From NCBI GenBank assembly GCA_024278175.1, contig JAJRTS010000071.1, positions 62,001 through 126,000 on the forward strand: DNA of 64,000 nt, given 5' to 3'. This DNA comes from Gemmatimonadales bacterium. Its GTDB lineage: Bacteria > Gemmatimonadota > Glassbacteria > GWA2-58-10. Position 1 is the stretch's first letter. The number at the start of each line of letters is the position of its first letter. Under the pieces are notes generated by a model. The model had not been told where the DNA came from, did no database searches, and saw nothing but the letters and a program-made list of their open reading frames with translations. Below are positions 16,650 to 28,445 of this stretch, one piece after another. A program made the position numbers and the translations under genes.

Positions 16650-17168
16650 TCAGGGCTTGAGGGGCTCGTCAGCGGTTGCTATCTCCGCTTGCAGCACTTC
16701 GATCCTGTCACCCTCGGCCACAACCCCGTCCTGTGTTACACGGGCGAAAATTCCCTCGCGCGGCATCACGCAGTCCCCTGCCTGCTCGTAGATGGCGCAG
16801 CGGTTATGGCACTCCTTGCCGATCTGAGTCACTTGCAGCCTGGCTGTGCCCACGCTCAGCACCGCGCCCACCGGCAGAGAAGCGAGTTCAATCCCACCGG
16901 CCACGATATTTTCCGCGAAAATGCCGTGGAACGTGTCTACCCCGCGTTCTTTTATTTTCTCGATACTGGCTGCCGCGAGCAGGCTCACCTGACGGTGGCC
17001 CGGCCCGGCATGGGCGTCGCCCGTGATACCGTGGCCCGCAACCAGCTCGGCCTGTTTTACCACCCTTTTCTGCATCCCGCGCCGTGCGCTGATACAAACC
17101 GCTAGCACTGTTCCTCTGTTGTCAGTCAAGCCGCTATCTCCCCCCTCAAAACCGTACGCAGGCGGCAT
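16650..17168 (-). CDS. MOSC domain protein
   Basis: 172 residues. The MOSC fold is a beta-barrel found in MoCo sulfurases and small stand-alone proteins linked to molybdenum cofactor. Seen: GTVLAVCISARRGMQK, HGITGDAHAGPGHRQVSLLA, GIFAENIVAGGIELASLPVGAVL, LQVTQIGKECHNRCAIYEQAGDCVMPREGIFARV. The Cys in the KECHNRC segment is typical of stand-alone MOSC proteins. The ATG (17166-17168) overlaps the moaA stop as TGATG, so translation is coupled to moaA. The context makes a cofactor maturation role likely. Confidence 0.85.
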   Translation of the reverse strand: MPPAYGFEGGDSGLTDNRGTVLAVCISARRGMQKRVVKQAELVAGHGITGDAHAGPGHRQVSLLAAASIEKIKERGVDTFHGIFAENIVAGGIELASLPVGAVLSVGTARLQVTQIGKECHNRCAIYEQAGDCVMPREGIFARVTQDGVVAEGDRIEVLQAEIATADEPLKP

Positions 17169-18175
17169 CAACCGCCGATTGATGACATGCAGGTCACTCC
17201 GGGGCCGTCGGCCCTGGAGCCCGCGCTGCGGCCGTGACCTTGCACTTTGCCGGCCAGGGCGGCCAGCACCGCGCCGCTCAAATGCGCATCCGGGGCCGCG
17301 CTGCGAATCATCGCGCCAAGATCCAATTCATTCCTGTCGTGAAGGCAGAGCCGGAGCCGACCGTCGGCAGTGAGCCGCAGCCGGCTGCAACCGGCGCAGA
17401 AGCAGCCCGTAAGCGGGGCGATAAACCCAACCCTGCCGCTGAAACCCTCCACGCTGTAGAGCCGGGTAACTCCCTGGCGCCCCTGCTGCCGCAGAGGAAA
17501 TATCTCGCCGATCCGCCGGGCAATCTCCCGCCAACCCACCAGCCGGTCCGGCTGCCAGTGGTTGTCGCCGAACGGCATGTACTCGATAAAGCGCACGGTG
17601 AACTCGTTGTCCTCGGTCAGCGCCACAAAATCCGCGAGTTCGTGGTCGTTAATCCCGCGCACCACTACTGTATTGAGCTTAAGCTCAAGCGCCGGCTCAG
17701 CCAGCGCCGTTTCGATCCCCCGCCAGACACTTGGGAAAAAATCCGCGCCGGTGATTTCCCTGAAGCGCCCGGCGTCCAGACTATCCAGGCTGACATTAAG
17801 CCGGCTTATACCGGCGGCGACAAGGCCCGGCAGCCTGCCGTCGAGCAGGGTGCCGTTGGTTGTCAGCGCCACCGTGCGAATCCCGGCGATCCCGGCGATC
17901 CGTTCGATCAGCTTTTCGATCCCACGACGCAGCAGCGGTTCTCCGCCGGTAAGCCGTACCTTGCGCACGCCCATCCCCGCAAACAGCCGCACCAACCGGA
18001 TCAACTCATCGTCGCCAAGGCCCTGCCTGCCGGTTTCACCAGGCAGATCGGTTCCTCCCGGGGGGCGGCAGTAGCTGCAATTGAGGTTACAGCCGCCGGT
18101 CAGCGAAATCCTCAGATAGTCGTGTTTGCGGCCGTAGCGGTCGATCAGGATGTTTCTCTCGGGCATGGCGTTCAT
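17168..18175 (-). CDS. moaA: GTP 3',8-cyclase, molybdenum cofactor synthesis
   Basis: Radical SAM enzyme that rearranges GTP in the first step of molybdopterin synthesis. 335 residues. The N-terminal radical-SAM cluster motif is CNLNCSYC (CX3CX2C), then VRLTGGEPLLR and TNGTLL. The C-terminal cluster is CX2CX13C, seen as CFCAGCSRLRLTADGRLRLC. It ends in Gly-Gly (SSIGG), the conserved tail needed for catalysis in the family, although the preceding 30 residues are unusually rich in Gly, Ser and Arg. The following MOSC gene overlaps its stop. A long untranslated region (18176-18525) with two imperfect direct repeats lies upstream. Confidence 0.93.
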   Translation of the reverse strand: MNAMPERNILIDRYGRKHDYLRISLTGGCNLNCSYCRPPGGTDLPGETGRQGLGDDELIRLVRLFAGMGVRKVRLTGGEPLLRRGIEKLIERIAGIAGIRTVALTTNGTLLDGRLPGLVAAGISRLNVSLDSLDAGRFREITGADFFPSVWRGIETALAEPALELKLNTVVVRGINDHELADFVALTEDNEFTVRFIEYMPFGDNHWQPDRLVGWREIARRIGEIFPLRQQGRQGVTRLYSVEGFSGRVGFIAPLTGCFCAGCSRLRLTADGRLRLCLHDRNELDLGAMIRSAAPDAHLSGAVLAALAGKVQGHGRSAGSRADGPGVTCMSSIGG

Positions 18176-18525: not shown

Positions 18526-19194
18526 CTAAAACCTGTAAAAAATGCTCGTACCAATCACCGGATCGTGGTCCCAGTTGCTATTGGCGGGGAGCCTGTCCGA
18601 GCGATACTGGAAATAGAGCGAGAAGACCACGGGTTTGTTCAGCCCCCACTTGAACCCGGTAGCCAGCCAGTTGGTATTGTAGCGGGAATGCGGGCCCAGG
18701 CTGGAAGTCTGTAGCCAGAAATCGTTGTAGGTAATCCAGGCGCAGCGCACTTTGCCCAGCATAAAGCGGTGGGTCAGGCGGGGACGGATGCGGATAAACT
18801 CCCGGCCCTCGTCGTTGAGCTGAGCGTGAACCCTGGTGCGAATGTCGAAAGTGGTTGTCCCGTTGTGGTAGAGCTTGAACACCGGATCGATAAAAATGTT
18901 GTACTGCCTGCGCCACCGGCCGTCGTACTCCTGGGGCTTGACCCGAAAGAGAACCATCAGGTTCAGCCAGCGGTTGCTGATCTTGATGTTAGGCCCGATT
19001 TCCCAGCGCAGCCAGTAGAAATCGGAGACGTTGTCGCGGATGCGCAGTTGGATGTCGCTTTTGAGCGAAACCCGGTCAGTTATTTTTTTCTGGATACCGT
19101 ACTCGCCCCAATGTTCCAGCCTGCCCGCAAGACAAGAGTCAGTCGCCATCAGAAGAACCGCAAGGGTTAATACTGGTAATAGCAGTTTATGCAT
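18526..19194 (-). CDS. DUF2490-type outer-membrane beta-barrel protein
   Basis: 222 residues with a clear signal peptide (MHKLLLPVLTLAVLLMATDSCLA). Cleavage or lipidation at the Cys is possible. The mature part is a run of alternating amphipathic strands (WLRWEIGPNIKISNRWLNLMVLFRVKP, TFDIRTRVHAQLND, FIRIRPRLTHRF, VFSLYFQYRSD) ending in Phe (GTSIFYRF), the usual end of an outer-membrane barrel. This matches the DUF2490 family, whose function is not established. It follows modC by 30 bp, so it may be cotranscribed with the molybdate transporter and could help molybdate cross the outer membrane. That last point is inference. Confidence 0.7.
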   Translation of the reverse strand: MHKLLLPVLTLAVLLMATDSCLAGRLEHWGEYGIQKKITDRVSLKSDIQLRIRDNVSDFYWLRWEIGPNIKISNRWLNLMVLFRVKPQEYDGRWRRQYNIFIDPVFKLYHNGTTTFDIRTRVHAQLNDEGREFIRIRPRLTHRFMLGKVRCAWITYNDFWLQTSSLGPHSRYNTNWLATGFKWGLNKPVVFSLYFQYRSDRLPANSNWDHDPVIGTSIFYRF

Positions 19195-19224: not shown

Positions 19225-20358
19225 TTAACCGGCCATCTCATTTTCGAAGTCCTCATCGGCGCCGAGCGCCACGGTTCTCATCGCATTGGCCTTTACTATT
19301 ACATGCACGTCTTTACCCTGCTCAAGCTCCAGCTCGCTCAGCGCCTGCTCGGTGACCACTGCCCTGACCCGCTGGCCGACATCCACCGTGACAATCGTCC
19401 TGTCGCGTAAGCGCTCGAACGAAACCACTTTTCCCGGCCAGATATTGCGGCTGGAGAGCCGGGGAAGCTCCCCGACAGAGAGGATGATCTCATCGGCCCG
19501 GAAAGTGACATAGCAGCCCTGGCCCGGACGATGGTTGTCGGCCGTGACTGTTATCATCAGGTTCTGGGCACGGACCTTGCTGAAACCTCCCTTGCTGTCT
19601 ACTTCCGCGATACGGCCCTCGATAATGTTCTCTATCGAGTCCACACTGATCACCTTGGCCGCCGCGGCCAAAACATCGTGAGGATGCCCCAGGGCCGACA
19701 CCCGCGAGTGCTTGCGATGGTCGCTGTCCTCCTCGACCACCATCAGCGCCACCGTGTCGCAGAGAGCGCTGATATCGGCGAAAACATGGCTGACATAAAC
19801 CATCGGAATCGACAATTCGTTCTTGAGCCGCAGCAGGTAGGCCAGGATCCTGTCGCGCAGCTTGCCGTCCAGGCCGGTCAACGGCTCGTCGAGCAACAGC
19901 ACGTTCGGACTGGTGAGCAGGGCGCGGCCAATCGCCACTCTTCTGCGCTCCCCTCCGCTTAGCTGTGCCACTCCGCGATCCAGCAGCCTTTTGAGATCGA
20001 GCAGAGCGAAAATGTCTTGTGGCTGGAGTTGTCGCTGTGAGGGTGCTATTCTCTCGTAACCGAACAGCAGATTTTTCCGGACGCTTAAGTGGGGAAACAG
20101 CAGGTTATCCTGAAACACCACGCCCAGCCTGCGGCGCTCTGTCGGGACATTGGCACCGGTTTCCGAGTTAAACAGGTCTGTGCTTCCATTGACCCGGATC
20201 AGTCCCGAGTGCGGATGGATTATCCCCATCAGCGCCAGCAGCAGCGTGGTCTTGCCCGCTCCAGAGGGGCCGATCAGCCCGGTAACCTGGCTCCGGCTGC
20301 TGACCGATACGTCGAGGTCGAACACGCCCCTGGTGATTTTGAAATCGAGCTCCAGCAT
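19225..20358 (-). CDS. modC: molybdate ABC transporter ATP-binding protein
   Basis: 377 residues. ATPase domain: Walker A GPSGAGKTTL, Q-loop VFQDNLLFPHL, signature LSGGERRRVAIGRAL, Walker B VLLLDEPLTGLD, H-loop VYVSHV. The C-terminal 85 residues form a TOBE/MOP oxyanion-binding domain (SRNIWPGKVVSFERLRDRTIVTVDVGQRVRAVVTEQAL), which fits ModC. The ATG is 2 nt after the modB stop. Tungstate or sulfate importers share the fold, but the neighbouring modA, modB, moaA and storage genes point to molybdate. Confidence 0.92.
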   Translation of the reverse strand: MLELDFKITRGVFDLDVSVSSRSQVTGLIGPSGAGKTTLLLALMGIIHPHSGLIRVNGSTDLFNSETGANVPTERRRLGVVFQDNLLFPHLSVRKNLLFGYERIAPSQRQLQPQDIFALLDLKRLLDRGVAQLSGGERRRVAIGRALLTSPNVLLLDEPLTGLDGKLRDRILAYLLRLKNELSIPMVYVSHVFADISALCDTVALMVVEEDSDHRKHSRVSALGHPHDVLAAAAKVISVDSIENIIEGRIAEVDSKGGFSKVRAQNLMITVTADNHRPGQGCYVTFRADEIILSVGELPRLSSRNIWPGKVVSFERLRDRTIVTVDVGQRVRAVVTEQALSELELEQGKDVHVIVKANAMRTVALGADEDFENEMAG

Positions 20359-20360
20359 GA

Positions 20361-21038
20361 TCAGTTCCCGTGTCCGGACTTAAAGCGCCTGGTCCCGACC
20401 CTGGCCACAAGCGCCTCGCTGGCCAACAGCGCCAGCGCACTCAGCGCCAGCGAGATAACGACCAGGCGCATCACTTCCGCCTCGTGGCCGGGAGCCTGGT
20501 GGTGATGAAATATTTCCAGGGGAATGGTACGGTTGCCCTGGGTGCCCGCGCTCACCATCGCCGTGGCGCCGAACTCGCCCAGAGCCCTGGCGAAACAGAG
20601 CACTCCGCCAGCGACAAGCCCCGGCCAGGACAGCGGCAAAGTGACTGTAAAAAACGTTCGCAAGGGTGAACAGCCCAGCGTACGCGCGGCCGATTCCAGG
20701 CGCGGATCCACATGCTCGAATGCGTTACGCACCGAGCGCACCAGCAGCGGGAAACCCATCACAGTCGCGGCGATAGCCATCCCTGTCCAGGTGAACACAA
20801 CCCGGATGCCCAGCTGACCCAGCAGGCTGCCGATAAAACTCTGGGTGCCGAAAGCTTTGATCAGGAAAAAACCGGTAACTACCGGGGGAATTACCAGGGG
20901 CAGGAAAATCACAGTTTCGACAACCGATTTTCCGGGGAACTTGCGGCGGGCCAGCAACCAGGCCAGCCCCACGCCAGGGACGATACCCAGCGCGACGGCC
21001 AGCGTGCCCATATAGATTGACAGCCAGATCGACGACAT
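20361..21038 (-). CDS. modB: molybdate ABC transporter permease
   Basis: 225 residues from the ATG at 21038, which has GAGAG upstream. Five or six membrane helices. The EAA loop that docks onto ModC is AARTLGCSPLRTFFTVTLPLSWPGLVAGGVLCFARALGEFGAT, with the conserved ARALGEFG ending of molybdate/sulfate permeases. The promoter-proximal partner modA is separated from it by the 224-bp repeat copy C, which interrupts an otherwise tight operon. Confidence 0.93.
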   Translation of the reverse strand: MSSIWLSIYMGTLAVALGIVPGVGLAWLLARRKFPGKSVVETVIFLPLVIPPVVTGFFLIKAFGTQSFIGSLLGQLGIRVVFTWTGMAIAATVMGFPLLVRSVRNAFEHVDPRLESAARTLGCSPLRTFFTVTLPLSWPGLVAGGVLCFARALGEFGATAMVSAGTQGNRTIPLEIFHHHQAPGHEAEVMRLVVISLALSALALLASEALVARVGTRRFKSGHGN

Positions 21039-21076
21039 TTCGCTCTCTAGTATCGACAATTCCTGCTCCAGCCAAG

Positions 21077-21316: not shown

Positions 21317-22117
21317 TCAGGGCCGCTTGAACCCGTACTTATCCAGAACGGCCAGGAACTCATCGCTGGTGAGAAATTGCATGAACCTGCCGGCTTCCTG
21401 CTTACGGGAACTGGCGCTCACGATGGCGGCGTGATAGGTAATCGGCTTGTGGGAGCTCTCAGCGAACGTAAACAAGGTCCGCACCTTGCTGCTGCGGGCG
21501 GCGTCGGTGGCGTAGACTATTGCCGCGCTGACATCCCCCTGCTCCGCATAGCGAAGAGTCGCGCTGACATTGGGCGCCAGCACGACCTTTTCCCCGGCTG
21601 CGAGATTATCCCACAAGCCGTAGTGCTCCAGCGCCTGTTTTGCATATTGCCCGGCCGGCACGTGCTCCGGATCACCGATACTCAACCTCTCGGTCCCGGC
21701 CAACTCCCGGGCCGACTTAATCCCGCTACGAACCGGCAGCGGTTCCACGCAAACCAGTGAGTTACGCGCGAACACAAACTGACTGGCCCCATCCACCAGT
21801 TTTTTCCGTCCGGCATATTCGATCCAGCGCTGACTGGCTGAAATGAAGATATCCGTAGGGGAACCGGTCTCGATCTTACGCGCCAGCGACCCGGAGGAAG
21901 CAAACTCGAATCCGACCTCGATGCCGGTGGAGGCGTAAAACTCCTTCGCCGCCTCGGTTATCAGGTCCGTGGTGCTGGCAGCGGCATAGATTACAATTTG
22001 CGACTTCGGCTGCTTGCCGCCTTCGCCGCAGGCAGCCATGAACACGAACAGAGATGCGCAAACCAGAGCCGCCGCCGTCGGGCCGGTTGTCCCGCCCGAA
22101 CCTTTTATCAAAGACAT
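21317..22117 (-). CDS. modA: molybdate-binding periplasmic lipoprotein
   Basis: 266 residues. Lipoprotein signal with lipobox FMAAC near residue 30, so anchored rather than free. ModA features: IVIYAAASTTDLITEAAKEF, GFEFASSGSLARKIETGSPTDIFISAS (oxyanion contacts from the Ser residues), IGDPEHVPAGQYAKQAL, VAPNVSATLRYAEQGDVSAAIVYATDA, and the C-terminal GRFMQFLTSDE. The ATG at 22117 is preceded by GAGGTGA. It feeds ModB/ModC. Confidence 0.93.
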   Translation of the reverse strand: MSLIKGSGGTTGPTAAALVCASLFVFMAACGEGGKQPKSQIVIYAAASTTDLITEAAKEFYASTGIEVGFEFASSGSLARKIETGSPTDIFISASQRWIEYAGRKKLVDGASQFVFARNSLVCVEPLPVRSGIKSARELAGTERLSIGDPEHVPAGQYAKQALEHYGLWDNLAAGEKVVLAPNVSATLRYAEQGDVSAAIVYATDAARSSKVRTLFTFAESSHKPITYHAAIVSASSRKQEAGRFMQFLTSDEFLAVLDKYGFKRP

Positions 22118-22242
22118 TCTCACCTCGACAAAATCCTGTTCCGCTCAGGGAAGACCGATAGCAAAGAGACGGCCCACTCCCCCCCTCTTGCGCCTAAGCC
22201 TTTCCGGCCCGCTTGCGGACAACTGCTTGCAAGCTGCCGGCC

Positions 22243-23058
22243 TCAGCCCTTGTAAATCCGTGTGCCCGTGTGTTTACCTGCCAGCGCGCTGGTGATATTG
22301 CCGGGTTTGAGACCGTTGATGATCTCAAGGTACTTGACGTTTTTGCTGCGCTGAAGGTAATCAAGCACAACGCGCTCCACCACCAGGTCGTCCAGGTCGC
22401 GCTCCCTCAGCTCACTGACCGTGATTTCGGGAATGAACTCGGCCTTGGGGTCCTTCTTGGGATCGTTGGTGTACAGGCCGTCCTCGTCCTTGATATAAAG
22501 CACGCTCTCCGTACCCAGGAACTCCGCTGTGAGGAACACGCCGGTATCGGTGCGGTTGTCGGGGATCGAACCTTTCTGGGGCACCTCTTCCCAGTAGGTG
22601 AACGGCGGCATGCCGACCATGATCGGAATACAGCCGAGCTTGAAGAACAGCGGCAGCATCTCGAACTGCTCGGTGGAGATGTGGATTCCGCCGTGCTTGG
22701 CCAGCAGCATCTGCAAAATACGTGCGTTCTGCAGGGCGATAGAGCCACCCAGTGCCGCCAGAAATCCCGGGGGCAGTTCCAGGTCGATCGCGATCTCGTA
22801 GGCGTGACGCGCCCGGGTGCCGCCGCCGGAGCAGATCATGATTTTATTGCTCTCGTGGTTGGCGACAATCTCGTTGAGGATCGGGAACAGCGCCTTACGT
22901 CCGCGGTCCATGATGCTCTGGCCGCCGATTTTCATCAGCCTGACGCCGGGGATGATTCTGATCGGCTTATCGCTGGTGGCTTCCAGCAGGCTCTTGTCGC
23001 TGAGCGACTCGTGCTCGAACCTGGTCCAGATATCCCGTGCCGCATCTTTCTTACCCAT
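22243..23058 (-). CDS. molybdenum storage protein subunit, paralogue 1 (MosB-like)
   Basis: 271 residues, amino-acid-kinase/UMP-kinase fold. It matches the beta-type subunit of the Azotobacter molybdenum storage protein closely as I recall that family: VRLMKIGGQSIMDRG, GGGTRARHAYEI, LLAKHGGIHI, GMPPFTYWE, YIKDEDGLYTNDP, EIINGLKPGNITSALAGKHTGTRI. Storage proteins pack ATP-dependent polyoxomolybdate clusters inside a hexameric cage. This paralogue keeps the nucleotide-phosphate Lys in KIGG, which the other two lack, so it is the best candidate ATP-using subunit. ATG preceded by GGAGG. It lies directly upstream of modA. Confidence 0.85.
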   Translation of the reverse strand: MGKKDAARDIWTRFEHESLSDKSLLEATSDKPIRIIPGVRLMKIGGQSIMDRGRKALFPILNEIVANHESNKIMICSGGGTRARHAYEIAIDLELPPGFLAALGGSIALQNARILQMLLAKHGGIHISTEQFEMLPLFFKLGCIPIMVGMPPFTYWEEVPQKGSIPDNRTDTGVFLTAEFLGTESVLYIKDEDGLYTNDPKKDPKAEFIPEITVSELRERDLDDLVVERVVLDYLQRSKNVKYLEIINGLKPGNITSALAGKHTGTRIYKG

Positions 23059-23124
23059 TCATCCTCCGTATTTATCTTATATATTTGCAGATATGCGATT
23101 CATCCAAAGTATGACCGCAGGGCC

Positions 23125-24003
23125 TTATTTGCCGTTGCCGCCCACATCGGCGGCTACGCTCACCGAGCTTTTCGACTCGTCCTTGAAGATAACGGTTCCC
23201 ACTTTCTCACCGTTGAGCGCCCTGGTCAGGTTACCGCGCACCAGGCCGTTGATGATATAGATTTTCTTGCTCCGGCGGCAGCGAGCCATCACCTCAAGCA
23301 CCGAGCGCTCGATTATCAACTCGTTGAGGTCCATCTCCAGCAGCTTCTGCACACTGATCTTCCCGATCAACTCCGCGTCCGGGTTCTTGCGCGGGTCCTC
23401 GGTGAACAGGCCATCCTGGTCCTTGATATAAATCATCGACCGGGTGCCCAGCACCTCGCTGACCATGTAGATCCCGAAATCCGGCCCATAGTCCGGGATA
23501 TTACCCACTTTCGGCGGTTTTTCCCAGTACATGTGCGGAGGCATCGGCACCATGATCGGGATCATCCCGGCGTGGATGTACATCGAGAGTTCCTCGAAAT
23601 GTTCGCGGGTCATCCTGATTCCGCCATGCTTGGCCAGCAGGGCGTAAAGAATCCTGGCGTTCTGTTCCTCGATCCCGCTGACCAACATCGACAGCCCGCC
23701 GGGCGGGAGGCCGAAATCGAGTCCCACCGAGTATGAATGCCGCACGCGGATCCCCCCGCTGACAGAGAGGATCATCCCGTGCTTGCCCTTGTTCTCCACA
23801 ATCTCTTCCACCAGCGGGTAAACCGCTTTTTTACCCTTGTCGATAATACTTTTTCCGCCGATCATGATCACGTTCTGATCCGGCAGAACCGCGATCTGCT
23901 TGTTTGTGTCCGTCGAGGACAGTACATCCTTACCCAGCAGGGACTCGCGCATAAACCTGCTCTTGATGTGGGTCCGGCTGAACCCCTTCTTATGTGCCGG
24001 CAT
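23125..24003 (-). CDS. molybdenum storage protein subunit, paralogue 2
   Basis: 292 residues, same fold and block order as the 22243 gene: VIMIGGKSIIDKG, SVSGGIRVRHSYSVGLDFGLPPG, ILYALLAKHGGIRM, MPPHMYWEKPP, YIKDQDGLFTEDP, YIINGLVRGNLTRALNGEKVGTVIFKDE. The KIGG lysine is Met here (MIGG), so nucleotide use may be altered. The C-terminal 15 residues (SSVSVAADVGGNGK) are an extra tail. ATG at 24003 is preceded by GGAGGGAG. It is 66 bp from paralogue 1 and 31 bp from the ECF-like gene. Confidence 0.85.
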   Translation of the reverse strand: MPAHKKGFSRTHIKSRFMRESLLGKDVLSSTDTNKQIAVLPDQNVIMIGGKSIIDKGKKAVYPLVEEIVENKGKHGMILSVSGGIRVRHSYSVGLDFGLPPGGLSMLVSGIEEQNARILYALLAKHGGIRMTREHFEELSMYIHAGMIPIMVPMPPHMYWEKPPKVGNIPDYGPDFGIYMVSEVLGTRSMIYIKDQDGLFTEDPRKNPDAELIGKISVQKLLEMDLNELIIERSVLEVMARCRRSKKIYIINGLVRGNLTRALNGEKVGTVIFKDESKSSVSVAADVGGNGK

Positions 24004-24034
24004 AGAACTCCCTCCATAACAGCGCCCGCCAAGC

Positions 24035-25135
24035 TCAGGCGCCATCTATCTTGATGTGACCGACCAGATATCTCGAAACCGGCGCCGACAGCACCCCGAA
24101 CAGGCACTGCGACACGACAGGCAGGACCAGCAGCAGGTAGAACTCGGCCGGCATCCTGAACAGCAGCGACAGGATCAGCACCGCCGACGCGCGCGCCACA
24201 CCAGCCACCAGTCCGATAAACGCATACAGTATCAGCGAGCGGGACCCGCCCGACGCTCTGACCAGCAAGTCGACAGTCAGCGCGGGCAGGAAATGCTGGA
24301 AGATGTCGAAAACCCCGAACCGTCCAAAACCGGCCAGAAAGTTGATCGCCCCGCTCACCACCCCGATATTAGTAGCCGCCAGCCTTGTACGTGTCAGCGT
24401 GGCCGCGGCGATATACGCCGGTACAATCACAAGATTTTTAATTCCCGGAGCCAGCGGAAAGCCGGGCGCAATCTTGATAAATCTCACTCCCACCACCACG
24501 ATAGTCAAAGCGAAAACCAGCGCCCGATCACTATCGGCAAACGTTTGGCGCGCCGTGGCCAGCCGGCTGTTGACCAGTTCATCCACAACGGTGAAATCGC
24601 CCTTGAACAACCTCTTGAGAAATATTCTCTTCCCGCCGCCGCTCTGAGCGCCATCCTTTCCGCCCTTTGCCTTTCCGCCGCCTCCAAGTCCTCCCCGGCC
24701 CTCGAAATAGCCCAGAGTCGACTCGAATAACTGCGCCAGTTCACGGCTCATTCCCAGGCCCGTCAGGCCGCTCACATACTGCTGGCGGCTAAGGCCGTGG
24801 CGAATCAGGACACCGGCGGCCAGGATCGTGAGCAGCCGCACGCACATGGCCGCGCCCTCTATCGCTCCGGCGGTACTGACATTCAGGTCCCAGCCGCCGA
24901 GGCGCAGCAGGGTAAAATCCCTATCGGCCGTAAACAGAGAGTAAAACACCAGGATCATCGCCATGAAAACGGCGCTCTTGCGCAACACGCGCAACTGGGC
25001 CGCCGGTACCCCGGCGGCCAGCCAGAGCACCACCTGAAGGGCCAGCAGAGCCAGCACTCCCCGCTGGCCAAGAACGAATACGGCTGTCGAGACCGCCAGC
25101 AGATAGACAATCTTCAGCCGTGGCGAGATGATCAC
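24035..25135 (-). CDS. ECF-transporter-like membrane protein (T-component half plus extra membrane half)
   Basis: 366 residues. Residues 1-130 resemble the membrane part of a CbiQ/EcfT transmembrane component (LKIVYLLAVSTAVFVL, FYSLFTADRDF, MCVRLLTILAAGVLI, LTGLGMSRELAQLF). A Gly/Lys-rich linker (about 145-170) and a charged helix (FKGDFTVVDELVNSRLATARQTF) follow. Residues 205-366 add five more membrane segments resembling an S-component-like or second transport domain (AATNIGVVSGAINFLAGFG, LILYAFIGLVAGVARASAV). No ECF ATPase is adjacent. Its place between storage-protein genes suggests metal or oxyanion movement, but the substrate is unknown. GTG start at 25135 is the likely start. Confidence 0.5.
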   Translation of the reverse strand: MIISPRLKIVYLLAVSTAVFVLGQRGVLALLALQVVLWLAAGVPAAQLRVLRKSAVFMAMILVFYSLFTADRDFTLLRLGGWDLNVSTAGAIEGAAMCVRLLTILAAGVLIRHGLSRQQYVSGLTGLGMSRELAQLFESTLGYFEGRGGLGGGGKAKGGKDGAQSGGGKRIFLKRLFKGDFTVVDELVNSRLATARQTFADSDRALVFALTIVVVGVRFIKIAPGFPLAPGIKNLVIVPAYIAAATLTRTRLAATNIGVVSGAINFLAGFGRFGVFDIFQHFLPALTVDLLVRASGGSRSLILYAFIGLVAGVARASAVLILSLLFRMPAEFYLLLVLPVVSQCLFGVLSAPVSRYLVGHIKIDGA

Positions 25136-25231
25136 TCTCAGGTCCAGCCTCCGCTTTGCGGGAAAAATCGATACTCCTGCAAAGTCTACTGTTTGATTTT
25201 CGGCGCGCCTTGAGCGCAGCCGATCAGTTCA

Positions 25232-26110
25232 CTAAGCCTTTTGCCGGCCCCCGGACTCGTCTTTGAAAATCACCGTGCCCACGTTCTCACCCGCCAGCGC
25301 TTTTTCGATATTGCCCTTCACCAGGCCGTTTACCAGATAGATTTCCTTGGCGTGATGGGCTCTGCACATATTTTTCAGCACGGTGCGGTGGATCGGCAGG
25401 TCGTCCAGATCCAGCGCCAGCAACTCCTGGGCGCTGATCCTGGGAATGAACTCCGCCTTATCGGGATACTTGTGCGGGTCGAGAGTATAAAGCCCTTTTA
25501 CATCCTTGGCATATACAATCCGCCGCAGACCCAGGACCTCGGCCATGATATACATGCCGAAATCCGAGCCGTATTCAGGGAGATTGCCCATCATGCTGGG
25601 TTTTTCCCAGAAGTGGTACGGCGGAATCGCTATTGAAATCGGGATCATATCGGAGTAGACATAGAGGGGAAGCTTGTCAAAATGCTCGCGGGCCATCCAC
25701 ATCCCGCCGTGCTTTGCCAGCAGGGCGTAAAGCACCCGCGCGTACTGGCCCTCCACCGCACCGGCCAACATCGCCATCCCCCCGATCGGCAGGCCGTAAT
25801 CGAGACCCATGTACCAGGTGTGACGGTTACGCACGCCGCCGCTGACTCCCAGGATCATCCGGTAGCCCAGTTGCTCGCGGCAACGCACTACCTCCTCGAC
25901 CACCTGCAGGATCGGCTCGCGGCCCCGGTCCATGATGCTCCTGCCGCCGATAAACACCAGGTCCACGTCCGGCAGCACCGAAAGCTCGGAGCCGGCCCAC
26001 ATTTCCTCTTCGAACAGGTGCTTGCCCATCAGCGACTCGCGGGTAAAGCGGCTCTGCATGTGGGCGCGCTTGCTCTCGGGCTCTGTCCGCTCGTGCTGCT
26101 TGTTCGCCAT
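25232..26110 (-). CDS. molybdenum storage protein subunit, paralogue 3
   Basis: 292 residues, first gene of the molybdenum run. Blocks: VDLVFIGGRSIMDRG, GVSGGVRNRHTWYMGLDYGLPIGG, LLAKHGGMWM, AIPPYHFWEKPSMMG, YAKDVKGLYTLDPHKYP, YLVNGLVKGNIEKALAGENVGTVIFKDE. It is closer to paralogue 2 than to 1. The KIGG lysine is Phe (FIGG), and the acidic KDEDG segment has become KDVKG, so it is the most diverged at nucleotide-contact positions. ATG follows GAGAGGAACG. A separate promoter could lie in the 160 bp upstream. Confidence 0.82.
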   Translation of the reverse strand: MANKQHERTEPESKRAHMQSRFTRESLMGKHLFEEEMWAGSELSVLPDVDLVFIGGRSIMDRGREPILQVVEEVVRCREQLGYRMILGVSGGVRNRHTWYMGLDYGLPIGGMAMLAGAVEGQYARVLYALLAKHGGMWMAREHFDKLPLYVYSDMIPISIAIPPYHFWEKPSMMGNLPEYGSDFGMYIMAEVLGLRRIVYAKDVKGLYTLDPHKYPDKAEFIPRISAQELLALDLDDLPIHRTVLKNMCRAHHAKEIYLVNGLVKGNIEKALAGENVGTVIFKDESGGRQKA

Positions 26111-26272
26111 CTAGCGTTCCTCTCATCTTGTCTGATTCAAGCCGCTGTTGTCCGCCAGGTGATTAATCACCTGCTTAGGCAGTAGGGAATCTACGGCGCA
26201 ATATGTAGAAAGAAAAGCTAATATCCACGGGAACCAATGTCAATTCTAAATCATGGTCCGAGGAGGAATGGT

Positions 26273-27006
26273 TCAGGCTATCCAGCGATGTTTGATATTG
26301 CGCAGGCTGACCAGGAAGAGCAGGACACAGAACGAGGTGAGCAGCAGGAAATTCAGCCACAGCGGCAGGCGGCCCGCACCGTTGACCGCATGGTGCATGA
26401 TATCCGCACCGTATGTGAGGGGAAGCAGATAACTGAGCGGCTGGAGCGCAACCGGCAATGCGGCCACGGGGAAAACAGGCCGCAGAGAAACACCATCGGG
26501 AAGCGGAAGAAATTGCTGAATGTCTGGGCCTCGAAAACCTCGCTGACACTTACAGCGATAAACAGGCCCAGAAAAGTAGAGCTGACCGCGATCAACGCCA
26601 CACTGCCGGCCAGCGCCGCCCAACCAATCCCGGAGATGTCGATCAGAAAAGAAGCGATCAGCACCGGAATACACGCGTTGACAATCCCGAAGAAAATCGC
26701 TCCGCCGGTCTTGGCCAGCATCAGCAGGCGCAGCGGCACCGGAGAGAGCAGCAGACGCTCGAACGACCTGCCCTTGCGCTCGAACGTAACTGTGACCGCC
26801 AGCATCGAGGTGGTGCCGAACAGGATACTCATCGCCATCACGCCCGGCAGGATCATGCGGATATCCACCGGGGTCTGGCTCCTGATGAAAAACATCCCTG
26901 TCCAGGCCACCGGAAAGAGAATCCCCCAGCTCAGGTTAGGCGGCTTGAGGTAGTAGGTCCGCATGTCCTTGAGCACGATACACCAGAACGCCTCCCAGTG
27001 TCTCAT
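26273..27006 (-). CDS. ABC-2 type export permease, interrupted by a frameshift
   Basis: The intact protein would be 244 residues with six membrane helices and the ABC-2 pattern (LKPPNLSWGILFPVAWTGMFF, VTFERKGRSFERLLLSPVPLRLLMLAKT, SNFFRFPMVFLCGLF then FPVAALPVALQPLSYLLPLTYGADIMHH). The frame breaks at the A4/T4 run 26472-26475, where one extra T (TTTT to TTTTT) restores the reading to the stop at 26273. As sequenced, translation would run into an unrelated tail and stop at 26353. The ATG overlaps the ATPase stop (ATGA at 27003-27006), so the two are coupled. Confidence 0.85.
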
Positions 27007-27998
27007 CCGCGCCTCCCCCGGTGCCCGCCGTTGTCCATTTTAGCTATTTCCAGGCCGGTTACCCTGACAAACACGTCCTCCAGCGAGGGTCGCACCAGCC
27101 GCGCCTCCGACACTTCTATCCCCCGGCGTTCAAAAAAACCGAACAGCGGCGCCAGGTCAAGGCGTTTTCGGCAGTAGAGGCGTGTACGTCCAGGTTCAAC
27201 CGTTTCCGCGCGTACACCCGCGAACTCTCCGGATAACTCCGCCGCCAGCTGATCCGTGCCGGCGGAAGTGAGGAGTTCGACAACGTGGCCGGCCTCCAGC
27301 GAACTCATCAGTTCATCGAGAGTTCCCACCCGGACAATCCTGCCCGCGACGATAAAGGCGATTCTGGCGCAAAGCCGCTCGGCTTCCTCGATATAATGGG
27401 TGGTCAGAAAAATCGTGGTGCCCCGGCGGTTCAGCCCGGAAAGCAGAGACCTGATCTGCCGCGCGCTGGCCACGTCGATTCCGCTGGTCGGCTCATCGAG
27501 GAACAGGATTCCCGGCCTGTGGATTATCCCCGCCGCGATAGTCAGCTTGCGTTTCATTCCCCTGGAGTAGGTGGCGAACTTGCGCTCCGCCGCCTCGGTG
27601 AGCCCAAATGTTTCCAGCAGGCGCGATGAACGCTGCTCCCGTTCCCGGCCCGGCATTCCATAAAGCGCGGCACAGAACTTCAGGTTCTCCCGGCCGGTAA
27701 GCTCCGGGTACAGATTGCTCTCATCCGGGACGATCCCCATCAGATGCTGGGCCTGCTTGATATCCGCCGTGTAGTCCCTGCCAAAGTAACGGATACGGCC
27801 GCTGTCGGGTCGCGCGAGGCCGGTGAGCATGTTGATTGTCGTGGTCTTGCCGGCGCCGTTGGGTCCCAGGAAACCGAATATCTCACCCTCGCCAACGGAG
27901 AACTCCACGTTTTCCACGGCTCGAAGCCGCCCGAAATATTTGCGCAGCCCGGAAACTTCGATTGCCATCGGCCGCCCATGTTCAAAATCGTTTTGCAC
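27003..27998 (-). CDS. ABC exporter ATP-binding protein
   Basis: 331 residues, NatA/DrrA-like subfamily. Walker A GPNGAGKTTTI, Q-loop IVPDESNLYPELT, signature TYSRGMKRKLTIAAG (S-R-G-M in place of the usual L-S-G-G/S-x-G-M pattern of this subfamily), Walker B ILFLDEPTSGID, H-loop LTTHYIEEAE. A C-terminal domain of about 100 residues (VELLTSAGTDQLAAELSG, then RLVRPSLEDVFVRVTG) is typical of drug or polymer exporters. The GTG at 27998 directly abuts the stop of the small Cys-rich gene, and GAGG lies upstream. A second start ten codons on (MAIEVSGL) is possible. The substrate is unknown. Confidence 0.88.
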   Translation of the reverse strand: MQNDFEHGRPMAIEVSGLRKYFGRLRAVENVEFSVGEGEIFGFLGPNGAGKTTTINMLTGLARPDSGRIRYFGRDYTADIKQAQHLMGIVPDESNLYPELTGRENLKFCAALYGMPGREREQRSSRLLETFGLTEAAERKFATYSRGMKRKLTIAAGIIHRPGILFLDEPTSGIDVASARQIRSLLSGLNRRGTTIFLTTHYIEEAERLCARIAFIVAGRIVRVGTLDELMSSLEAGHVVELLTSAGTDQLAAELSGEFAGVRAETVEPGRTRLYCRKRLDLAPLFGFFERRGIEVSEARLVRPSLEDVFVRVTGLEIAKMDNGGHRGRRG

Positions 27999-28160: not shown

Positions 28161-28445
28161 CTATCTGTTATTCCTTTTGAGCAGGGTGTCAACCTGACGT
28201 TGCCATTCCTCCAGTTTCTCCGTATTGACCTCGTAATGAACGAAATTGCCGCGCTTATCGGCAATCAGCAGCTCGGCATCGCGTAAGATCCGCAGGTGCT
28301 GGCTCACCTCCGCCGGTGTGATTTTTAACCTGGCCGCCAGGGCATTTACACAGAGAGTTTTCTCCTTGAGCAACTGGACAATCCTGATCCTGGAGTCAAC
28401 GGAGAGGGCTTTGAATATCCGGGCCAGTCTGGCCGCATCCTGCAT
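28161..28445 (-). CDS. ArsR-family transcriptional regulator
   Basis: 94 residues, winged helix: LARIFKALSVDSRIRIVQLLKEKTLCVNALAARLKITPAEVSQHLRILRDAELL then the wing ADKRGNFVHYEVN. The ELCVCDL-type metal site of classical ArsR is only partly kept: the Cys in TLCVNAL remains at one position. The inducer may therefore be a thiol-reactive or different metal ligand. ATG follows GGAGG. A near-consensus promoter (28474-28502) lies just upstream, so autoregulation is likely. First gene of arsR, the Cys-rich protein, the ATPase and the permease. Confidence 0.9.
   Translation of the reverse strand: MQDAARLARIFKALSVDSRIRIVQLLKEKTLCVNALAARLKITPAEVSQHLRILRDAELLIADKRGNFVHYEVNTEKLEEWQRQVDTLLKRNNR

Follow-up and report, generated by a model that had tools for sequence, protein, structure and literature searches.

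Molybdenum storage proteins and a variant with three subunit genes

The molybdenum storage protein, MoSto, has been described in nitrogen fixers as a cage of two subunits. In Azotobacter vinelandii it is encoded by mosA and mosB and forms an (alpha-beta)3 hexamer (PDB 2OGX), whose beta chain is reportedly the ATP-using pump subunit, with alpha in a capping role. The N-terminal arm of alpha is said to lock the ATP of beta, and Met149 of beta to gate the entry to the cage. ECF transporters are a further point of comparison, and the known ones move vitamins and metal cations; their S components have a six-helix fold. Their EcfT component has an Ala-Arg-Gly motif, and their S components carry an AXXXA motif at the first helix (PMC11109136).

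The window analysed here, a stretch of 64,000 nucleotides from a Gemmatimonadales bacterium (GCA_024278175.1), is part of contig 60 in a draft genome of 113 contigs that is 97% complete. An earlier note on this DNA had described three MoSto-type genes and a membrane protein gene in one minus-strand run. A check of the open reading frames found all four: Mo1 (22243–23058), Mo2 (23125–24003, with a possible alternative start at 24045), the gene of a fused membrane protein, here called EcfT-like (24035–25135), and Mo3 (25232–26110). They are part of a seven-gene core on the minus strand, Mo3-ECF-Mo2-Mo1-modA-modB-modC, which continues with the genes of the molybdate-binding protein ModA (21317–22123), the molybdate permease ModB (20361–21059) and the molybdate transport ATPase ModC (19225–20358). 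All three pass the cut-offs of the curated models (TIGR01256, 178 bits against 62.5; TIGR02141, 212 against 182.6; TIGR02142, 299 against 285), and ModABC is ordinary, its linkage to the MoSto trio being its only unusual feature. The same strand also carries genes for a DUF2490 protein (18526–19194; PF10677), for MoaA (17168–18175; PF06463, PF04055) and for a MOSC-domain protein (16650–17171; PF03473), and on the other side of the core one for an ArsR-type regulator (28161–28445; PF01022). Neither a moco riboswitch nor any other Rfam family was found near the operon; the matches within the window were tRNAs only.

This block is a real, conserved and lineage-specific variant of the MoSto system. 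With the A. vinelandii system it shares the protein family, the ATP-site motifs (in Mo1), the gate-type Met149 (in Mo1 and Mo2) and the adjacency of the subunit genes. It differs in that three subunit genes are conserved together instead of two, two of the three subunits are without the KIGG lysine that both A. vinelandii subunits keep, the covalent ligands of the alpha type are mostly absent, no nifH was detected, and an EcfT-like gene stands inside the block. Two-subunit systems also occur in the same phylum. Of 395 genomes sampled from the phylum, four more had MoSto, and a census of their family (f6) added a fifth; all of these (G179, G223, G311, G379 and G399) have two subunits. Their gene order (loci L034, L035, L036, L037 and L075) is methyltransferase-like gene, beta, alpha, ABC ATPase, ABC-2 permease, modA, modB, modC, except that the contig of L036 ends before any mod genes are seen. 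The f6 pairs resemble the trio in that a beta-like and an alpha-like gene stand beside mod genes, no nifH was found in the four genomes tested, and the covalent ligands are mostly absent. They differ in having two subunits, both with a KIGG-type lysine, and an ABC-2 exporter pair and a methyltransferase-like gene alongside, and no EcfT-like gene was found with them.

Family and origin of the three proteins

In phmmer searches against the PDB, MoSto beta chains were matched by Mo1, Mo2 and Mo3 with E-values of 1.5e-67, 1.2e-56 and 4e-51 (231, 195 and 177 bits), and alpha chains with about 1e-44 to 1e-40 (157, 141 and 150 bits). Mo1 is 46% identical to the A. vinelandii beta chain. One argument for reading the trio as ordinary UMP kinases, or as other enzymes of the amino-acid-kinase group, is that AA_kinase, a general model, is the sole Pfam family assigned to them. 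However, UMP kinases in the PDB were matched with about 6e-9 or worse and at most about 39 bits, curated pyrH models gave at most 58 bits against cut-offs of 158 and 244, and the genome contains a separate pyrH-like gene besides the three MoSto genes. UMP kinase identity was rejected on these scores and is scarcely conceivable; the earlier note had named an alignment with ordinary UMP kinases as the outcome that would defeat its MoSto call, and the MoSto matches proved far stronger.

In an outgroup-free tree, all nine proteins from Glassbacteria fall into a single clade (support 98/96), within which Mo2 and Mo3 are sister groups (100/98). The simplest reading of this single clade is that the trio probably arose by duplications in the Glassbacterial lineage itself, separate from the split of alpha and beta. 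The best tree prefers this clade, but an alternative topology, in which Mo1 groups with the betas and Mo2 and Mo3 with the alphas, is not rejected (p-AU 0.058).

Conservation of the block

Among 150 relatives, the EcfT-like protein was found in three genomes and MoSto in the same three, with three copies in each. The order and strand of Mo3-EcfT-like-Mo2-Mo1-modABC are identical in the genome of the window, in G001 (locus L014), which belongs to the same genus, and in G002 (locus L015), taken to be Candidatus Glassbacteria bacterium RIFCSPLOWO2_12_FULL_58_11 (contig MFIX01000157.1), which belongs to the same family. Purifying selection is strong, with dN/dS values between the window and G001 of 0.039 for Mo1, 0.083 for Mo2 and 0.085 for Mo3, so that neither Mo2 nor Mo3 is in decay. 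Because order and strand are kept in two other genomes and selection is purifying, this is a conserved gene cluster and not a chance assembly. The trio and the membrane gene are neighbours in every genome found to carry them; the outcome that the earlier note had named as refuting its system, with the genes apart elsewhere and the ECF-like protein linked to unrelated transport genes, did not occur. Independent support is limited, since the trio was found only in three genomes of one family; three other genomes of that family have neither the trio nor the EcfT-like gene. When the EcfT-like alignment was compared with one genome per species (84,980 species), only the contig of G002 was recovered, a result from two peptide patterns by which distant relatives could be missed. 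A scan of viral contigs gave no matches.

The earlier note had further proposed one integrated island for import, storage and cofactor delivery. This is only partly supported. The linkage to modABC is constant in all three genomes. The cofactor-delivery part is not conserved, because moaA and the genes of the MOSC and DUF2490 proteins are linked in G001 but have no homologues in the G002 locus. A metallo-beta-lactamase-like gene, recognized by reading the sequence, lies between moaA and the DUF2490 gene in G001 (L014, 5461–6570) and is not in the window. The G002 locus has two tandem modA genes (L015, 7158–8978) where the window has one. Its outer flanks also differ, with pst phosphate transport genes on one side and, by reading the sequence, a beta-hexosaminidase-like gene on the other. 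The ArsR regulator has a 76% identical copy in L014, directly upstream of the block, and a 62% identical copy in L015, about 5 kb upstream; it is likely an associate of the block and a candidate for its regulator.

In the window, an ABC-2 permease gene (26180–27006, minus strand) lies between an ABC ATPase gene (27003–27998) and Mo3. It is split between two frames and must therefore be a pseudogene or reflect an assembly error. The exporter (26353–27998) was rejected as a conserved part of the operon: the locus in G001 and G002 is without it, and the permease has no good match in either genome. An ABC-2 type exporter stands beside MoSto in two lineages, the proteins being only about 30% identical.

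Roles of the subunits

The observation in the earlier note that only the protein encoded at 22243 keeps the KIGG lysine, with Met and Phe in the others, extends to both additional genomes. The lysine is kept in all three Mo1 copies, is replaced by Met in every Mo2 (MIGG in the window) and gives way to Phe or Ala in the Mo3 copies (FIGG in the window, ALGG in G002). In alignments, both subunits keep a KIGG-type lysine in the pairs of A. vinelandii, Azospirillum and f6. Mo1, Mo2 and every beta-type chain in the comparison have the equivalent of Met149 of beta, which is not found in Mo3 or the alpha chains. Mo1, a beta-like subunit, therefore keeps both Lys42 and Met149 of beta, Mo2 keeps the Met only and Mo3 keeps neither. 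In an alignment with Mo2, the beta chain of PDB 6ris carries a Ser at the position of the KIGG lysine, which points to the importance of this lysine in beta.

Since Mo1 is the sole bearer of the lysine and has kept Met149, the trio likely comprises one ATP-using pump subunit and two non-catalytic partners. The N-terminal arm of Mo2 and Mo3 resembles that of the f6 alpha chains. Mo1 is also the best conserved across genera (76% identity), followed by Mo2 (65%) and the fastest diverging, Mo3 (46%). In the Mo3 of G002 (L015, 12082–12954), the RxRH motif (here GICGRQ) and the AKHGG motif (here LRDGG) are gone as well, which makes it, by its residues, the protein least like an ATP-using subunit. 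As a pattern in the sequences, the division of labour anticipated in the earlier note has good support, with a single lysine-bearing subunit among three that are conserved together; as a mechanism it is plausible. It is, however, not new in itself, because the A. vinelandii cage is reportedly already divided into a pumping beta and a capping alpha.

The EcfT-like membrane protein

The earlier note had described the membrane protein as an EcfT fused to a second transport half. This holds for the N-terminal half (residues 1–145; 24701–25135, minus strand), of which residues 3–140 match CbiQ/EcfT (TIGR02454, E 8e-10). With PF02361 (cut-off 25), the G002 orthologue scores 34.7 bits, and the window copy is a weak match around the cut-off (23.6 bits in one search, 24.9 alone and 25.5 with neighbours in another). 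In hhalign, the N-half aligns (E 9.8e-5) with orphan EcfT proteins from this family. An AlphaFold model from three rows was unusable (pLDDT 36); after addition of five EcfT rows, the N-half reached about 55–85 and the C-half stayed below 50. The top Foldseek matches of the model were all EcfT/CbiQ (E 0.01 or weaker), which is supportive but not independent because EcfT rows were part of the alignment of the model. For the C-half (residues 200–366; 24038–24538, minus strand), on the other hand, there was no match in Pfam or the PDB and no clear homologue outside the three genomes among the 395. It has several predicted helices and a small-xxx-small motif in the first one (ALVFA, ALIFG or AIIFG in the three copies), where S components have their AXXXA motif, and is S-component-like by shape only. 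The S-component family PF12822 had no matches in Glassbacteria and weak ones only elsewhere among the relatives. EcfT-like fusion is thus the safest name for the protein.

As in ECF transporters, an EcfT-like part is accompanied by several membrane helices, the first with a small-xxx-small motif. The locus differs from them in that the T and putative S halves form one chain, that no clear Ala-Arg-Gly motif was seen in any of the three copies, and that no EcfA ATPase gene is adjacent. In six genomes, the one ECF ATPase model used, TIGR04521, had no match over its cut-off, but these genomes encode many ABC ATPases of a generic kind. An orphan EcfT encoded beside truA in the same genome does have the Ala-Arg-Gly motif (MARGY). 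Such an orphan (loci L054, L055, L056, L057, L058) lies directly before truA in every Glassbacterial genome examined except G002, and on contigs of sufficient length no ATPase gene was seen next to it. No support was found for the earlier suggestion that the protein could move an oxyanion; the coupling motif is missing and, with the one model used, no dedicated ECF ATPase was detected. The protein might instead be a transporter of a vitamin or a cofactor precursor, or a defunct one, that merely hitched to the operon. An EcfT-like N-half, the vitamins and metal cations carried by known ECF transporters, and the missing motif and dedicated EcfA would all fit this idea, which we consider a serious possibility at somewhat less than even odds. 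Against it, the gene has the same place, between Mo3 and Mo2, in each of the three genomes, is under selection (dN/dS 0.163, window against G001), and was nowhere found without the trio. The most ambitious reading is a molybdate storage machine of three subunits with a single pump, joined to a membrane protein of ECF descent that is dedicated to it, needs no ATPase of its own and passes molybdate or a cofactor precursor from membrane to cage or back; it appears quite unlikely.

Cluster ligands and alternative readings

In the A. vinelandii cage, His156 and Glu129 form covalent bonds to an octamolybdate (Mo8) and three histidines to a tungsten cluster (W3), whereas other clusters are held by non-covalent contacts (PMC4504029). 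Alignment confirmed Glu129, His140 and His156 at these numbers in the alpha chain. The three W3-binding histidines we take to be alpha His140. Equivalents of all three residues are absent in Mo1–Mo3, except for His156 in the Mo3 of two genomes. Most of the covalent ligands are missing in the f6 pairs as well, with one Glu at the alpha-129 position in a beta-like copy; they may thus be a proteobacterial trait and not one of the MoSto family. Because these ligands are mostly missing, molybdenum storage by the trio is something we infer. Their loss weakens this function but does not exclude it, since the known cage also holds clusters non-covalently.

We favour, with a probability of roughly 0.6, the reading of the block as an operon for molybdate uptake and storage, with Mo1 as the pump of a three-subunit cage that serves molybdopterin enzymes. 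ModABC would import molybdate, and the three MoSto-family subunits would form a hollow hetero-oligomer related to the Azotobacter alpha/beta hexamer. The beta-like Mo1 would bind ATP and molybdate and push the latter into the cage, while Mo2 and Mo3, without a catalytic role, would supply the wall and the cap, whether within the same cage or in two different ones. The stored molybdate would go to nitrate or formate molybdopterin enzymes and not to nitrogenase, and the EcfT-like membrane protein would belong to the operon.

Alternative explanations concern the number of cages and their content. Mo1 and Mo2 might form one hexamer and Mo1 and Mo3 another, for different conditions or oxyanions such as molybdate and tungstate. 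The sister relationship of Mo2 and Mo3, their N-terminal arms of the same kind and their differences at cluster-binding positions (for example, the equivalent of alpha His156) are in line with this arrangement. A single operon-like block of constant order favours joint use, however, and no differential regulation is visible, so that separate hexamers seem rather unlikely. The trio could also be a MoSto-descended cage or enzyme without molybdenum clusters that senses molybdate, activates it as a kinase in cofactor synthesis, or stores a different anion. This would account for the covalent ligands missing in all but the Mo3 of two genomes, and the G002 block does adjoin pst phosphate transport genes. 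We nevertheless judge it unlikely, because modABC is always adjacent, the non-covalent clusters of the known cage need no such ligands, and the f6 pairs, also without most of them, likewise stand beside mod genes.

Molybdenum use and implications

The favoured reading, uptake and storage for molybdopterin enzymes, agrees with the enzyme complement of the genomes. No nifH scored over the cut-off in ten genomes (best 31 bits against 394). The molybdopterin oxidoreductase family PF00384 was matched with 1e-64 or better in the MoSto-bearing genomes; in the three MoSto-less genomes of the family it was matched at best with 2e-16 and over part of the model only. The best such proteins are Nap/Fdh-like in the genome of the window (below the curated NapA cut-off), a formate dehydrogenase alpha subunit in G001 and NarG in G002. 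That molybdoenzyme genes track the presence of MoSto across these six genomes is no more than suggestive.

A three-subunit MoSto in an uncultured lineage without a detectable nitrogenase, but with nitrate reductase or formate dehydrogenase-like genes, hints that stored molybdenum may supply ordinary molybdopterin enzymes too. Its natural set of one lysine-bearing and two lysine-less subunits would make the pump and wall roles separable experimentally, and the constant EcfT-like partner is a concrete candidate for a membrane link.
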